Origin: Methylocystis silviterrae
GTDB lineage: Bacteria; Pseudomonadota; Alphaproteobacteria; Rhizobiales; Beijerinckiaceae
Assembly: GCF_013350005.1 (NCBI RefSeq)
Contig: NZ_JABVWW010000005.1
Coordinates: forward strand, 1-64,000
Direction: 5' to 3'
DNA: 64,000 nucleotides
The notes under the pieces are model-generated. The model made no database searches. It was not told the DNA's origin and was given only the letters and a program-made list of their open reading frames with translations. Positions 5,442-15,805 of this stretch are shown in pieces. Made by a program: the position numbers and the translations under genes. Positions within the stretch are counted from its first letter, which is position 1, and each line of letters opens with the position of its first letter.

Positions 5442-6152
5442 CTATGCCGGCAGCATGACCACCTTCGTCTTGACCGGAGTCCGGGAGTAGAGGTCGATCA
5501 TGTCCTGACTGAGGAGGCCGGTACAGCCGCTCGTTATGCCCTGCCCGATCGTCTCGGGGTCGCTGGTGCTATAGATCGTGTAGACCGTGTAGACGCCGTT
5601 CTTGTAAAGATACAGCACGCGGGCGCCGAGCGGATTTTCCAGACCTCCCGGCATGCCGCCGGCATATTTGCGCGCCTCCGGCTGGCGCGCGATCATTTCC
5701 TTGGGCGGCGTCCAGGTGGGCCATTCGGCCTTGCGCCCGATATAAACTTCACCGCTCCACAGGAACCCGGGGCGGCTGACATTGGCGCCATAGCGGGTGG
5801 CCATTCCGTCGCCTTCGATGCGGTAAAGGTGGAACTTGCCGGGATCGATGATGATCGTGCCGGGCGCTTCCTTGGAGGCGTAGCGCACTTTCTGGCGAAA
5901 ATATTTCGGATCGACCTTGCTGATATCGACCGCGGGGATCGCGAATTTGTCGTTGGGAACCGGCCCGTAAAGCTTCGCCGCCTCGGCGCGCATCATGTCG
6001 TCGGACGACACGCAACCGGCGAGCCCGGCCGCGCCGAGACCGACGGCGGAGCCGACCAGAAACGACCGGCGGTTGAGACGCCCCGACGCAAGCCCAAGTC
6101 GAGCTTCCTCGTTTGTTTCGCCGGCGTCGGCTATCCCATCGTCCTTAATCAT
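5442..6152 (-). CDS. Tat-exported YkuD (L,D-transpeptidase-like) lipoprotein with altered active site
   Basis: A 236-residue protein. The N-terminus has a twin-arginine motif (NRRSF, Arg28-Arg29), a hydrophobic stretch and a lipobox LAGC (Cys47), so it should be an exported lipoprotein. The rest follows the alphaproteobacterial ErfK/YbiS/YkuD pattern: FHLYRIEGDGMATRYG, PGFLWSGEVYIGRKAEWPTW, and an extended loop PGGLENPLGARVLYLY. L,D-transpeptidases build 3-3 peptidoglycan cross-links or attach lipoproteins using Cys in an H-x14-SGC-x-R motif. Here Cys210 is present, but the conserved IHGT is IYST (Tyr194) and the Arg after the Cys is Gly212 (SGCTGL). The protein may be inactive, or may have a changed chemistry. 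It is convergent with pduO and is followed by a pduO remnant. Confidence 0.8.
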   Translation of the reverse strand: MIKDDGIADAGETNEEARLGLASGRLNRRSFLVGSAVGLGAAGLAGCVSSDDMMRAEAAKLYGPVPNDKFAIPAVDISKVDPKYFRQKVRYASKEAPGTIIIDPGKFHLYRIEGDGMATRYGANVSRPGFLWSGEVYIGRKAEWPTWTPPKEMIARQPEARKYAGGMPGGLENPLGARVLYLYKNGVYTVYTIYSTSDPETIGQGITSGCTGLLSQDMIDLYSRTPVKTKVVMLPA

Positions 6153-6310
6153 GATTTTGGAGTTCCCATGTCCAGTTGCCGACCAAAGAATACTCCGGCC
6201 CGAACCCGCTGAACGTCTTTGCTGAGCCGAGACCTTGCCATCACTTGCTTTTCGGAAAGTAAAGAACGTCGGCTTTGACCGGAAATTCCGGTCATTCTGT
6301 GGCGGCGAGA

Positions 6311-10749: not shown

Positions 10750-11042
10750 CTAGATCGGCGCGAGGCGAATGCCTTCGTCACATCGCGATTGATCGCCGTG
10801 GCGCCTGCGGCATTCAACATCAGCAGCGCAACGAAGCGCAAAGATTGATGTGAAAGATCCGTGTCACGACTGGCGCGGTGAAATGCTCGACGCCGGGCCG
10901 GTCGCGGCGGTGATGAGAGAGCCAGGCTCTCATAGACGACAAACGCCGCAAGGAAAGCGGCGAGCCCGCCGGCGAAACCAGAAAAGCGGCGCGCGAGCAG
11001 GCCGGCGCTTTCGGAAGCGAGCAAAGCGATGACGCCGAGCGC
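10750..11042 (-). pseudogene. Truncated, frameshifted copy of the B12-operon membrane protein gene
   Basis: This copies the 3' half of the intact gene at 12161-12715. The shared stretch begins at GALGVIAL, keeps ESAGLLARRF-GFAGGLAAFLAAFVVYESL almost unchanged, shifts frame in the middle and returns with LLMLNAA and KTFASR before the CTAGATC end. The 5' half is absent, and the break at about 11042 joins straight onto a pduO fragment. The Cys in MSCES of the intact gene is replaced (LASES). It is not expected to make a functional protein. Confidence 0.8.
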
Positions 11043-11130
11043 GCCGGCGCCCGACAATGTTCTCGCTTTTCCCAATCGACTGAGCAATCTCTTGTTCGCG
11101 CTGGCGCGTTCGTCCGCAGTGCGCGCTTGA
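11043..11130 (+). pseudogene. Second remnant of the pduO 3' end
   Basis: Reading in frame gives PDNVLAFPNRLSNLLFALAR, against PESALAYLNRLSDLLFALAR in the intact enzyme, then unrelated residues and a stop. The DNA match is strongest at TTGTTCGCGCTGGCGCG. It is more diverged than the 6311-6490 remnant. It abuts the break in the truncated membrane gene, so both probably arrived in one rearrangement. Confidence 0.7.
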
Positions 11131-11155: not shown

Positions 11156-11833
11156 CTAGCATCGCTGCGGGAGAGCGACCGGAAAAGTGAGCCGCAGGGC
11201 AGTTCCCATCGGGCTCGGCGCGATCTCCAAGGCTCCGTCGAGGTGCGCCGCAATATCATGCATGAGCGTGAGGCCCTTTCCTGAAATTTTGGTCGACTGA
11301 GACAATGCTTTTAAAGAAAAGGGCGCTCCGTTGTTTTCAACGACAAGCTCGACCTCGCCTCGGAAGCACCGGACGCGCGTTTCGATCCTGCCCTTCTCGA
11401 GACCGACGAAGGCGTATTTGAGAGCATTTACCGTCGCTTCGACGACCACAAGCCCGACGCTTTTGGCGCGCGCGCGGTCAATTTCGAAATTCCCGTCTAT
11501 GGTCACGATGCTCTCATAACGGCTGTCAAAGGCCGAATGCAGAGTTTCAGCGAGAAGCCTAACGAAAGAGCCGAGGCTGCAAATCTCGTGCTCATTCGTA
11601 TCGAGCACGCCGTGGAGCGCCGCAGTCGCGCAGATGCGCGAAACGCAGATGTCGCATTGTGCCGGATGGCCACACTGTCTCCGCTGCGCGGCAAAGAGAG
11701 CCGATAAGACCTGCAATTCGTTTCTGATCCGATGGCAAACCTCTTCGTAGCGCTGCTGCGACGCGGCCAGCTGCGCTCTCAGCGAGGCAATTTCCCGCTT
11801 CAATTCCAGCGGTTCGTCTGATTCAACGGTCAA
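11156..11833 (-). CDS. Small sensor-less histidine kinase (HisKA_2 / HWE-like)
   Basis: A 225-residue kinase with a short N-terminal coiled coil (ELKREIASLRAQLAASQQRYEE) in place of a sensor domain. The phosphoacceptor His34 is in EVCHRIRNELQVLSAL, typical of HisKA_2. The ATPase domain has the N-box VEATVNALKYAF and a G-box SGKGLTLMHDIA. An unusual cluster of cysteines follows the His helix: Cys54, Cys60, Cys63, Cys68, plus Cys33 and Cys85. No receiver gene is adjacent, so its partner must be elsewhere. In alphaproteobacteria kinases of this family often feed PhyR, whose gene is 8 kb away; that link is inference. Confidence 0.8.
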   Translation of the reverse strand: MTVESDEPLELKREIASLRAQLAASQQRYEEVCHRIRNELQVLSALFAAQRRQCGHPAQCDICVSRICATAALHGVLDTNEHEICSLGSFVRLLAETLHSAFDSRYESIVTIDGNFEIDRARAKSVGLVVVEATVNALKYAFVGLEKGRIETRVRCFRGEVELVVENNGAPFSLKALSQSTKISGKGLTLMHDIAAHLDGALEIAPSPMGTALRLTFPVALPQRC

Positions 11834-12160: not shown

Positions 12161-12715
12161 CTAGATCGGGCGCGAAGCGAACGTCTTCGCGGCATTGCGA
12201 TACGCAACTGCGGCGGCGGCGGCCTTCAACATCAACAGCGTCGCAAAGGCGCCGAGATTGATGAAAAAGATTCTTGAGATGATCGGCGCCGTGAAATGAT
12301 CGACGCCGGGTCCTGTCGCCGCCGTGACCGCCAGAATCAGGCTCTCATAGACGACGAAGGCCGCAAGGAAAGCGGCGAGACCGCCGGCGAAACCAGGAAA
12401 ACGGCGCGCAAGCAGTCCGGCGCTCTCACAAGACATCAAAGCGATGACGCCGAGCGCGCCGCCCCAAAACAGCGTCATCGCGTCCGTCGGATAATGCAGG
12501 AAAAGAAAACCCACGGCCTGATTGGCGAACCAGACCGCGCCCGTCAGCAGCAGGGCCTCGCGACGCGCAGTGGTGAGCGCCGCGACGGCGGCGAAGCCCA
12601 CGAGCGGCAAGGCGCACGCCCAACCGAAGCTGAAAACAATGCTCGCGGCGATGAAGGTCGCGGCCCAGAAGATGCGGCGGTTTGTCGTCGTAAGAGTGGA
12701 AAGCGTCAGCGACAT
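12161..12715 (-). CDS. Small integral membrane protein of a cobalamin-riboswitch operon, candidate B12/cobalt transporter
   Basis: A 184-residue, very hydrophobic protein with about five to six membrane helices. Notable segments are FSFGWACALPLVGF (Cys34), the loop ANQAVGFLFLHYPTD between helices, WGGALGVIALMSCESAG (Cys96) and a final basic tail. Size and topology resemble the S-component-like B12 transporter BtuM, which also uses a conserved Cys, but I cannot confirm homology by eye. It is the third gene behind the BtuB-like receptor and its riboswitch, and no BtuCDF is present in the window. Together these make inner-membrane transport of cobalamin or cobalt the leading hypothesis. A broken copy of the gene lies 1.1 kb away (10750-11042). 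Confidence 0.65.
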   Translation of the reverse strand: MSLTLSTLTTTNRRIFWAATFIAASIVFSFGWACALPLVGFAAVAALTTARREALLLTGAVWFANQAVGFLFLHYPTDAMTLFWGGALGVIALMSCESAGLLARRFPGFAGGLAAFLAAFVVYESLILAVTAATGPGVDHFTAPIISRIFFINLGAFATLLMLKAAAAAVAYRNAAKTFASRPI

Positions 12716-12770
12716 GAGGTTTCTCCTTTCAAGTGAACACTAAGGAAGTCGAATTCAAAAGCGCGGCGCG

Positions 12771-13385
12771 TCAGCCGCCTCGCAACCGGCCTGCTGAACG
12801 ATCGATGGGATCGGGTTCGCGCAGGCCAAACCAGCGCGCGCGCAATTTGTCCCACAGCGCGAGGCGCGACCAATCCGGTTCTTTCAGGACTTTGTCCGTC
12901 TCCGCGTCGAGGAAGGGATTGGGCAGCAGCACGGTGATCTGCTGCTCGCCGGCGCCGTTGAACAATTGCAGTCCCCACGACATCGGCACGCAGCTCGTGT
13001 TTCGTCGGCGATAGAGTTCGGCGCGCGACGTGCGTCTGAGCTGTGCAAGTTCGGGAGACGTCGGCCGCGCGCGCGATCCCTTGTTCTCGCCGATGCAGAC
13101 GTGAAAATGCGTGACGCCGAAGGCGACGGTGAGATAGCCGTCGAGCAACCTGATTCGCGTCGGCGCGCGATCAGCGTGGATCTCCCACGCCGCGCCTTGA
13201 ATGATCGGCCCGAAGACGATTTCGCGCCAGTGATGTTCGAAAAGGTCGCGAAACAGTTCTTCAAGACTCGCCGAATCTGTCGGCAGGGAGAAGACATCGA
13301 GCGACGCGCCATCGGGCTCGACGATGCATCTTGGCGTTACGCTTGGCCTTACGTCTGAATTCGTTTCCATGTCGATCTCCCTCAT
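12771..13385 (-). CDS. Conserved soluble protein of unknown function in the B12 operon
   Basis: About 204 residues from ATG 13385, which overlaps the TGA of the receptor gene by one base. A later ATG at 13370 (METNSD) is also possible. The sequence shows EELFRDLFEHHWREIVFGPI, GVTHFHVCIGENKGS with a His-x-His pair and a Cys, RRTSRAELYRRR, MSWGLQLFNGAGEQQITVLL, and a Trp-rich basic end. There are no membrane segments or signal peptide, so it should be cytosolic. I do not recognise a characterised family. Its position between a B12 receptor and a small membrane protein under one riboswitch implies a role in handling cobalamin or cobalt after entry. Confidence 0.7.
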   Translation of the reverse strand: MREIDMETNSDVRPSVTPRCIVEPDGASLDVFSLPTDSASLEELFRDLFEHHWREIVFGPIIQGAAWEIHADRAPTRIRLLDGYLTVAFGVTHFHVCIGENKGSRARPTSPELAQLRRTSRAELYRRRNTSCVPMSWGLQLFNGAGEQQITVLLPNPFLDAETDKVLKEPDWSRLALWDKLRARWFGLREPDPIDRSAGRLRGG

Positions 13386-15463
13386 CACCAGGCGTATTTC
13401 ACGCCGCCGTAAAAGGCGCGCGCCGTCGTCGAATAATTGTAGACCTCCTCGTAGAGCGCATTGCCGACATTCTCGATGCGCCCATGCAGCGTCAGCTGGT
13501 CGGTCAGCCTGTAATTCGCGAAGAGATCGAGCCGCACATAGGGCGCGAGCATCACGCGTTTGTTGAAGATGAAGTCCACGTCATGCGCGGCGCCGACGAT
13601 ATTGGCGCGCGCTTCGAGTTCGAGACCCGGCGCACCCGTATAAATGACCGACCACATGCCCTTGTGACGCGGACGGCGCAGCAACGTGCGTCCAGCGTAG
13701 ATGCTGTCCTCGTCGACATCGAGATTGCGCGCGGAGAGGAACGTATAGCTCCCCCGCAACAGCAGCGCGCCGGGCACGAGAGCAGCTTCACCCGAAAATT
13801 CGACGCCGCGCGTTTCCGCGCGCCCGACGTTGAAATAGCAGCCGAAGATCTGCGTCGACGTGCAACTCTCAGCCTTTCCGAATTGAACAAGATTTTCGTA
13901 GCGATTATGGAAGACCGAGACGGAGGCCGTGGCGCGGCCGCCAAAAAAGCTCTGATCGATGCCGGCGTCGAAGCCGAGCACGCGTTCGGGCGCGAGCGTT
14001 GGATCGCCGTACTGGCTGAACCGCTGATAGAGCGAAGCGGTTTTGGCGCCTGTGGCGGCGGAGCCGCGCAGCCGCATGCCGATCTCATCGATGCGGAAAT
14101 TCGCCATCGTCCGCCAGGTGAGAAACGTTTGGTTCTTGCTCACCGCATCGGCGCGGCCCCCATAGGAAATATCGAGGCGGTCGAAGAGCGTGAATTGATG
14201 CTGCGCATAGCCCGACCATGTCGTCTGGACGGCGTGCGTCGGCGTGAAATCGTCGACGATCCAGGCCTCGCGCGAGCTTTGCGCCGTCTCGGTTTCGACG
14301 CGCGAACCCATCGTCGCGAGACCGAGCGCGCCGAGCGCGACATCGCTCTGATATTCAACGCCGCGCCGTCCGCCGAGAAAGCCGAAGCGGCAGTTCTGCG
14401 ACAGGAAGGTCAGCGTGTCGAAACAGGCTTCCGTCGACCAGACGTCACGGTTTCCCCGATTGGCGTAAAGCGTCAGCCTGTTGCGCAGCGTCTTGTCGAA
14501 CATGTCGGCGCCGAGCCGCACATAGCCCTGCATGAATGTCGCATGCTGATGATTGAAAGGATCGAACACGCTCCAGGGATTGAAGGCGTAGGGATTGTCG
14601 TAGCGAATCGCGCTGTCATAGCCGGCAAGGCCCGCCTCGATCCGCGCATCTTCGGTGAATTCGTAACCGATGCGCCCCGTGACGCCGACATTGTTGGCGG
14701 GATCGTCGGCGGGAAGCGGCGGCAGCGGCGTCGTCTGATCGCCGATCACGATGGGACGCTGCTGACGATAGCCGTAACGCGGGAAGCCATCGGCATGCAG
14801 GCCGGAGATCGACAACGCGTAGGAGCCCTGCCCGTCGGCGCCGGAGATCGACGCGCGCGACGACGACGTTCCATAGGCGCCGCCCTCCGACATGAGCCAG
14901 CCTTGCGGCGCGCCCTTGCCGCGGCGTGTGATGATATTGATCACGCCGCCCATGGCGTCCGAGCCATAGAGCGCCGATTGCGGACCGCGCAGCACTTCGA
15001 TCCGCTCGATGTCGGTCGGAAGCAGCCGGCCAAAATCCACCGAACCGTCCGTGCTCGTCGGATCGCCGATGCGAATGCCGTCGATCAGCACTAACGTCTG
15101 ACCTGGCGTCGAGCCGCGCAAAGCGACGGAGGTCTGCGCGCCAGGCCCGCCGTTCGAATAGACGTCAAGTCCCGGCACGCCGCGCAGAACGTCGTTGAAG
15201 CCGAGCGATCCGCGCTTCTGGATATCACGCGCATGAATGACGCTGACCGAAGCGCCGCTGCTCGATGCCGGCTGCTCGACGCGCGTCGGCGTGACGACGG
15301 TTTGGTCCTCAACGTCGGCGCCGGGCGAGCCTGGCTGCGCTGGACTTAACGGGCCGACCTCGATCACAGGCAGGGATTGCTGGGCGGAAGCGACGGAAGC
15401 GGAGAGGGATAAGGACAGCAGAAATGCGCCGCGCAAGGCGGGGCTCTGGATGTGGATATGCAT
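13385..15463 (-). CDS. btuB: BtuB-like TonB-dependent vitamin B12 receptor
   Basis: A 692-residue outer-membrane receptor. A signal peptide ends near ASVASAQQ. A TonB-box-like DQTVVTPTR follows. The plug domain (about residues 70-185) has VSVIHARDIQKRGSLGFNDV, GLDVYSNGG, RGSTPGQTLVLIDGIR and IERIEVLRGPQSALYGSDA. The remaining ~500 residues form the 22-stranded barrel, ending in a terminal aromatic (YGGVKYAW). The plug resembles BtuB rather than siderophore receptors, and an adjacent cobalamin riboswitch at 15585-15762 on the same strand supports corrinoid uptake. It heads an operon with the soluble protein at 12771 and the membrane protein at 12161. Confidence 0.92.
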   Translation of the reverse strand: MHIHIQSPALRGAFLLSLSLSASVASAQQSLPVIEVGPLSPAQPGSPGADVEDQTVVTPTRVEQPASSSGASVSVIHARDIQKRGSLGFNDVLRGVPGLDVYSNGGPGAQTSVALRGSTPGQTLVLIDGIRIGDPTSTDGSVDFGRLLPTDIERIEVLRGPQSALYGSDAMGGVINIITRRGKGAPQGWLMSEGGAYGTSSSRASISGADGQGSYALSISGLHADGFPRYGYRQQRPIVIGDQTTPLPPLPADDPANNVGVTGRIGYEFTEDARIEAGLAGYDSAIRYDNPYAFNPWSVFDPFNHQHATFMQGYVRLGADMFDKTLRNRLTLYANRGNRDVWSTEACFDTLTFLSQNCRFGFLGGRRGVEYQSDVALGALGLATMGSRVETETAQSSREAWIVDDFTPTHAVQTTWSGYAQHQFTLFDRLDISYGGRADAVSKNQTFLTWRTMANFRIDEIGMRLRGSAATGAKTASLYQRFSQYGDPTLAPERVLGFDAGIDQSFFGGRATASVSVFHNRYENLVQFGKAESCTSTQIFGCYFNVGRAETRGVEFSGEAALVPGALLLRGSYTFLSARNLDVDEDSIYAGRTLLRRPRHKGMWSVIYTGAPGLELEARANIVGAAHDVDFIFNKRVMLAPYVRLDLFANYRLTDQLTLHGRIENVGNALYEEVYNYSTTARAFYGGVKYAW

Positions 15464-15584
15464 GCGCGTAAACTCGCAGCGAGACGTGGGCCGTCACTGC
15501 GAAGGTCTTTGCCCACACGCCGACAAGGCGAGAGGCATCGGCCGCATCGGTGCACCCCGCCCGACGCTTTCGCGCGTGACCACG

Positions 15585-15762
15585 AAGCGACGGCAGGTCT
15601 CCTGGCTCGCGGGTTGTCGCCTTGGACCGCCTTCCCAGAGCCTTATGGCTCCAGTGGCTTAGTGGTCGTCGGCTCGCCGCTTACAGTTGCGGGGGCAGCC
15701 GCGGAATTGCGCACGAACCTGCGCGCTCACCGCATTCCCATTTTGATCCCGTTAGGAACCGT
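15585..15762 (-). promoter_or_regulatory. Cobalamin riboswitch (AdoCbl class)
   Basis: Read on the minus strand, the leader shows the full order of conserved elements: GGTTCC...GGGAATGCGGTG at the 5' side, then GCTGCCCCCGCAACTGTAAG, GCCACTGG, CTGGGAAGGC, and the B12 box GCCAGGAGACCTGCC at about 15590-15605. This is the classic cobalamin riboswitch, and it lies about 120 bases ahead of the BtuB-like gene. When adenosylcobalamin binds, expression of the downstream uptake genes should fall. Confidence 0.95.
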
Positions 15763-15805
15763 CTGCCGCAAAATAGAATGCCGATCGCATCGCGAGTCAA
15801 GAGCG

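Follow-up and report, generated by a model that had tools for sequence, protein, structure and literature searches.

A cobalamin riboswitch leads a three-gene operon

We analyzed a 64,000-nucleotide stretch of DNA (the window) from the methane-eating bacterium Methylocystis silviterrae. On its minus strand, a cobalamin riboswitch is followed, in order, by genes for a BtuB-like TonB-dependent receptor, a protein of the family DUF7676, and a small membrane protein that we call MEM. The features are as follows, in window coordinates.

15574..15778, minus strand: cobalamin riboswitch (RF00174); cmscan 123.7 bits, E value 1.4e-30, model positions 1-189, complete
13385..15463, minus strand: BtuB-like TonB-dependent receptor, 692 amino acids (aa); Plug and TonB_dep_Rec domains (Pfam)
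12771..13370, minus strand: DUF7676 protein, 199 aa; PF24724, E value 2.2e-70, 235.9 bits
12161..12715, minus strand: MEM, membrane protein of 184 aa with six predicted helices, S-component-like (AlphaFold2, Foldseek, and conservation)
10755..11066, minus strand: decayed partial copy of MEM (MEM positions 79-184 only); profile match, E value 1.2e-13

An earlier note, made by reading the DNA without database searches, had placed a cobalamin riboswitch upstream of a BtuB-like receptor, and both elements are borne out. The riboswitch scores far above the RF00174 gathering score of 31.5 bits and is the only Rfam match in the window to exceed its gathering score. The receptor has an N terminus that resembles a signal peptide by eye, and its top NCBIfam match is TIGR01779 (TonB-B12; E value 3.4e-74). 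Because its score of 250.5 bits falls below the TIGR01779 cut-off of 599.7 bits for a BtuB equivalog, we name it BtuB-like only.

The soluble protein with a His-x-His motif that the note had seen behind the receptor is the DUF7676 protein, which carries the motif HFHVCIG and scores well above the gathering score of PF24724 (27 bits). Its likely start is the ATG at 13370, behind a GGGAG, and AAAGGAG lies upstream of the MEM start (both read by eye). No hydrophobic N terminus or signal peptide is visible by eye in DUF7676, which is predicted to be cytosolic. The degraded MEM copy (11066-10755, minus strand) is likewise confirmed; it is 55% identical to MEM, and a second short match in another frame suggests a frameshift. 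Further C-terminal partial copies occur in two other genomes (G023 and G017). Between MEM and its remnant lies a gene for a small histidine kinase with HWE/HisKA_2 and ATPase domains (11156-11833, minus strand), in which no input domain was recognized.

The unit recurs under cobalamin riboswitches

The grouping seen in the window extends to other genera, where the genes often stand together under cobalamin riboswitches. Among 101 related genomes, MEM is present in 30 and DUF7676 in 26, and 25 of the latter also carry MEM. The usual order within the genus is riboswitch, receptor, DUF7676, and MEM, and this full order is repeated in a genome from another family of the class (G818). The receptor in the first position is exchangeable, with three unlike receptor groups occupying it. 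A scan of genome contigs yielded 40 loci, including some from Methylosinus, Methylocapsa, Beijerinckia, Rhodoblastus, Methylovirgula, Sphingomonas, and two Verrucomicrobiota metagenome-assembled genomes; the closest are mostly from Methylocystis, with 74-89% identity in MEM. Even draws gave low counts (MEM in 17 of 385 genomes across the class; DUF7676 in 3 of 398 across the phylum, two of the three from the same genus), indicating that both proteins are sparse.

A same-strand cobalamin riboswitch lies at most 5.5 kb upstream in 59 of 74 MEM copies, 6 of them with the riboswitch directly before MEM (119-286 nucleotides). By our own arithmetic, based on three riboswitches in a 3.9-Mb genome, about 0.2% of places would have one by chance. 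The count takes copies covering more than 140 of 185 model positions. It includes one copy with an in-frame stop (L128), an identical pair (L083 and L086, both counted), and many copies from one genus, and it leaves out repeated-genome loci (L099-L114, L117, L121, L129, and L164-L183), partial copies, and loci L080 and L194, where the search for MEM came up empty. In 15 previously unseen genomes of the class draw, a riboswitch is upstream of MEM in 11.

The host itself carries a second unit on another contig (C9; L061 5999-11409), consisting of a riboswitch (5999-6203), a different TonB receptor, a PepSY_TM protein (PF03929), DUF7676, and a MEM that is 45% identical to that of the window. We can only guess at the role of the PepSY_TM protein, perhaps as a reductase of cobalt or corrinoid. 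A mirror comparison of DUF7676 with MEM over 36 loci gave an r of 0.90, with 0 of 2000 permutations as high; we give it little weight because shared species history is included in this value.

Genes next to MEM elsewhere include several with a role in B12 metabolism. The genus has 12 full-length genes for CbiZ (PF01955), one of which contains an inner stop; 9 come directly after MEM, and each of the remaining 3 has a cobalamin riboswitch of its own. In L198 (5534-7435), a cobalamin riboswitch directly precedes MEM, which is followed by a CobT-like phosphoribosyltransferase (PF02277). In sphingomonad loci L135 and L137, a BtuF-like protein follows MEM, and L137 also encodes DUF71. In 75 of 102 cases, genes of the bacterial/archaeal B12 subgroup of this family stand beside genes for B12 transporters (PMC3541065). 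A TonB gene is a neighbor in L186 and L199. The parts can also be distributed differently: G130 splits them over two cobalamin-riboswitch units, one with MEM and a BtuF-like protein (L193) and one with a BtuB-like receptor and DUF7676 (L194), and in G099 DUF7676 has a riboswitch-led receptor on one side and, on the other, genes for FecCD and, judged by eye, for a BtuF-like protein and an ABC ATPase.

Other arrangements were seen around the unit. Members of a further TonB receptor group (open reading frames of 700-920 aa) lie near the MEM unit with their own cobalamin riboswitch in several genomes of the genus (L088 986-3729, L089, L091, and L095), and in G017 the C-terminal MEM remnant stands back to back with a member of this group. 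In Methylosinus sp. Sm6 (L120 7780-8790), a methyltransferase-domain protein lies between BtuB and MEM, and no DUF7676 was recognized there. In L190 (6633-10171), a MEM without a riboswitch adjoins QueH and the B12-independent methionine synthase MetE, which are on the opposite strand.

The predicted fold of MEM may resemble that of ECF S-components

Neither partner of the receptor can be placed in a Pfam or NCBIfam family whose role is known and unrelated, in keeping with the earlier description of both as uncharacterized. MEM has no match in either collection up to an E value of 1, and its relatives (34 searched against Pfam and 30 against NCBIfam) give only scattered matches of one or two members each (best E values, 0.0016 and 0.0041), none of them to CbtA/CbtB or another nickel/cobalt transporter family. 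A search of PDB sequences with the window MEM (P0001) returned one chance match (E value 0.8), and profile A3 matched no PDB chain up to an E value of 10.

An AlphaFold2 model of MEM built on 34 sequences has a predicted local distance difference test score (pLDDT) of 86 and a predicted template-modeling score (pTM) of 0.80, with helices at residues 10-32, 38-48, 51-71, 79-105, 108-134, and 143-178. We compared this model with the PDB using Foldseek; the results rest on the best 50 of 141 matches. The highest probabilities belong to S-components of energy-coupling factor (ECF) transporters, namely RibU (3p5n and 5kbw; probability 0.98, template-modeling [TM] score 0.55, E values of 0.27 or worse), followed by other RibU chains and PanT at 0.54-0.75. 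The B12 transporter BtuM also has an S-component-type fold.

C34, P37, and Q66 are present without exception in all 73 MEM copies compared, which reach down to 29% identity and exclude the copy with the in-frame stop. The earlier note had pointed to two cysteines in the membrane protein; C34, between helices 1 and 2, proves to be the only invariant one, and C95 varies. N65, Q66, Y75, P76, and W84 form a conserved signature. Basic residues of P0001 lie beside the N terminus, loop 2, loop 4, and the C terminus, with none in loops 1, 3, and 5. This charge pattern suggests that loops 1, 3, and 5 are outside, which should expose C34-P37 in loop 1 and Y75-P76 in loop 3 to the periplasm. S-components bind their substrate at the periplasmic side.

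DUF7676 is predicted to adopt a heme-chaperone fold

The AlphaFold2 model of DUF7676, built on 19 sequences, has a pLDDT of 87 and a pTM of 0.82. Foldseek returned 26 matches with probabilities of 0.99-1.00, the next being at 0.06. Nineteen of these bear the names of proteins that bind, chaperone, or degrade heme (HutX, ChuX, HemS, PhuS, ChuS, and one putative), and the remaining seven represent three unnamed structural-genomics proteins. The best E value is 2.2e-4 (HutX), three matches are at 0.001 or better, and the TM scores (query) range from 0.38 to 0.50 at 10-18% sequence identity. Thus, the predicted model has the HutX/ChuX/HemS fold. The ChuX/HutX family (PF06228) is not among the Pfam matches of DUF7676 up to an E value of 1, and in a profile alignment the GGHIK strand of HutX is paired with HFHICIG of DUF7676. 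None of the papers searched mentions DUF7676, and among the matches listed for cobalamin uptake, BtuM/BtuB, heme chaperones, and Methylocystis there was nothing on a riboswitch-receptor-DUF7676-MEM unit.

From the predicted fold and the gene context, we infer that DUF7676 may be a cytosolic corrinoid carrier or enzyme. An enzyme that acts on the incoming corrinoid, either a reductase/decyanase like CblC or a ring opener as ChuS is for heme, is a minority possibility that we take seriously. The fold group includes the heme-degrading ChuS, the many invariant polar residues (among them H47, H88, H90, C92, R112, R116, and E118) suggest a catalytic site, and corrinoids require reduction before adenosylation. 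Pointing instead to a carrier, DUF7676 belongs to no recognized catalytic family in Pfam, its closest named folds by E value are the heme binders HutX and ChuX, and one unit (G024) does without it.

The same fold raises the question of whether the cargo of the unit is heme or another tetrapyrrole, with B12 acting only on its regulation, since a TonB receptor with a HutX-type protein is the layout of a heme uptake locus. We consider this very improbable given the cobalamin riboswitch at 59 of 74 MEM loci, the CbiZ, CobT-like, and DUF71 neighbors, and a receptor closest to the B12 receptor model. Further, ChuX/HutX genes match another family (PF06228) where they are present (16 of 101 genomes), and the host genome has none.

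The host lacks matches to FecCD and EcfT

The earlier note saw no BtuC, BtuD, or BtuF nearby, and for BtuC and BtuF the whole host genome agrees: FecCD (BtuC) has no match in it, no dedicated BtuD search having been made, and all that PF01497 (BtuF) matches is 68 positions, interrupted by an inner stop, on a different contig. FecCD is also without a match in 21 of the 25 same-genus genomes that carry MEM. EcfT has no match in the host or in the genus; 9 of the 101 genomes are positive, and only one of these (G083) is among the 30 MEM genomes.

These absences bear on whether MEM acts alone. It might instead be an accessory subunit needing another partner or BtuFCD, or a corrinoid binder or decyanase on the periplasmic side. 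S-components normally require EcfT, and in L082 and L128 the MEM gene comes after BtuF-like and FecCD genes; in L135, L137, L188, L193, and L196, its neighbors include BtuF-like genes. Most same-genus MEM genomes, however, have no FecCD match, EcfT is without a match in 29 of the 30 related genomes that carry MEM, and BtuM functions in E. coli, a host without an ECF module (PMC6072759). We therefore regard an accessory role as unlikely. In L128 (8923-9483), the MEM behind the BtuF- and FecCD-like genes, under a cobalamin riboswitch, contains the in-frame stop, and MEM is perhaps decaying where BtuFC is present.

The host has MetH and no CbiZ. Its cob operon holds CbtA, CobW, and CobN behind its own riboswitch, with BtuR adjacent, and the host probably makes B12 itself. 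CbiC/CobH is found in 34 of 37 same-genus genomes searched (host included) and in 52 of 61 overall. MEM could be a transporter of cobalt, or of a cobalt complex, that feeds B12 synthesis, as predicted for CbtA-G and CbtX. Predicted cobalt transporters are often under B12 riboswitches, and MEM is small with a conserved Cys. In one survey, such transporters occur mostly in genomes with B12 synthesis (PMC2667541), which the CbiC/CobH counts would fit. In the host, though, cobalt is probably served by the CbtA already present in the cob operon; the scanned MEM relatives match no nickel/cobalt family; and MEM accompanies BtuB-type receptors, CbiZ, and BtuF-like proteins. Cobalt transport by MEM is thus decidedly unlikely.

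A proposed route of corrinoid uptake

In the route that we propose, the cobalamin riboswitch presumably represses the operon when corrinoid is plentiful, and the BtuB-like receptor would carry corrinoid into the periplasm. MEM, as a solitary S-component-like protein of six helices, would transport it through the inner membrane, needing neither an ECF ATPase module nor BtuCD, with C34 in periplasmic loop 1, together with the conserved Y75-P76 in loop 3, as a candidate contact or cobalt ligand. In the cytosol, DUF7676, with its HutX/ChuX fold, would take the corrinoid and hand it on to the adenosyltransferase BtuR and, in relatives, to CbiZ for remodeling. The computation establishes the riboswitch, the order and co-occurrence of the genes, and the missing FecCD, EcfT, and intact BtuF, with the folds as predictions. 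We infer transport, its direction, and its ligand, as well as the roles given here to C34 and to DUF7676 as a chaperone. The minimal route that the earlier note suggested, of receptor, cytosolic handler, and ATPase-free transporter, gains support from the frequent linkage of the genes under cobalamin riboswitches in other genera, from the missing FecCD and EcfT, and from the predicted folds, S-component-like for MEM and heme-chaperone-like for DUF7676.

That this unit serves corrinoid salvage is highly probable. We favor, with moderate confidence, a joint assignment in which MEM imports corrinoid at the inner membrane and DUF7676 handles it. More tentative is the idea of an import chain of a new make, in which MEM represents a new family of solitary S-component-like B12 importers with cobalt ligation or contact through the loop 1 Cys, and DUF7676 is a corrinoid carrier on a heme-chaperone fold; this is possible, and we would not yet count on it.

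Several observations weigh against this route. Among the best 50 of 141 matches to the MEM model, no S-component has an E value better than 0.27, none of the matches reaches 0.001, the first by E value is CcmC (probability 0.51), and BtuM does not appear. Similarly, MEM profiles A1, A2, and A4 match no PDB chain up to an E value of 10, in a PDB copy whose content of BtuM is unchecked. MEM behind FecCD genes in two loci, as described above, also counts here. Fifteen of the 74 MEM copies have no riboswitch, 7 of them clear misses with at least 6.5 kb of upstream DNA and 8 near contig ends (less than 1.9 kb). At four such loci from the class draw, none of the neighbors scanned has an evident B12 link: enoyl-CoA hydratase (L185), MmgE/PrpD with a deacetylase (L187), and, on the other strand, an oxidoreductase (L195) and QueH with MetE (L190), MetE being B12-related by function only. 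In L131, DnaJ follows MEM.

For DUF7676, the profile comparison with ChuX/HutX from related genomes is weak (P = 0.0028, the best of nine comparisons; the others were 0.087-0.83), and that with HemS C-terminal halves falls short of significance (P = 0.087). For HutX, by contrast, the comparison with this HemS set yields P = 1.5e-22. These weak values leave kinship between DUF7676 and HutX unproven by sequence alone, and the fold match carries it. DUF7676 is absent from the G024 unit (riboswitch, receptor, MEM, and CbiZ) and appears broken in G006 and G029, indicating that it is dispensable, and many other MEM loci are without it. Finally, since the host owns a cob operon, the unit is probably a salvage route and not the only source of corrinoid.

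If the proposed route is correct, bacteria have reused a heme-trafficking fold for vitamin B12, and MEM is a candidate importer in Methylocystis, Methylosinus, Beijerinckia, Rhodoblastus, Methylovirgula, and some sphingomonads. To our knowledge, little is known about the handling of free corrinoids in the bacterial cytosol. DUF7676 is a concrete candidate for this task, and a shared fold would then connect the trafficking of heme with that of B12; as a corrinoid carrier, it would be the first that we know of on the HutX/ChuX heme-chaperone fold.

Comparison with known systems

The unit shares a cobalamin riboswitch and a BtuB-type receptor with the BtuB-BtuCDF system but resides in a genome without FecCD or an intact BtuF. 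Like the cobalt transporters CbtA and CbtB, MEM is a small membrane protein under a cobalamin riboswitch; unlike them, it has no match to their families, and CbtA is present separately in the host cob operon.

The closest comparison for MEM is BtuM of Thiobacillus denitrificans. Compared with the published description of BtuM (Rempel et al. 2018; PMC6072759), the two share a size of about 20-22 kDa, six helices, linkage to BtuB, and a host without an ECF module, which here is reflected in the absence of EcfT from the genus and the BtuB-like neighbor. Both also have a single invariant Cys, in MEM at the predicted periplasmic face, and the predicted fold of MEM may be of the S-component type, as that of BtuM is. 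In BtuM, the invariant cobalt-binding Cys sits in loop 3 (C80; PMC6072759), whereas C34 of MEM lies in loop 1, between helices 1 and 2, the two positions being set apart without direct alignment. The conserved N65, Q66, Y75, P76, and W84 are MEM's own signature. The earlier suggestion of a transporter comparable to BtuM is supported by the S-component-like predicted fold and by the lack of FecCD and EcfT. Because of the position of its Cys, we do not assign MEM to BtuM; at best, it may work like BtuM.

DUF7676 resembles HutX/ChuX (PF06228) and HemS/PhuS/ChuS in its predicted fold, in the position of its gene behind a TonB receptor, and in a His-containing strand in approximately the same register. 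It differs in forming a separate Pfam family with low identity to these proteins (10-18%), and its riboswitch and CbiZ context points to corrinoid rather than heme. What is new here is two parts in the scheme of TonB-receptor B12 uptake, one comparable to BtuM and one with a predicted heme-chaperone fold.

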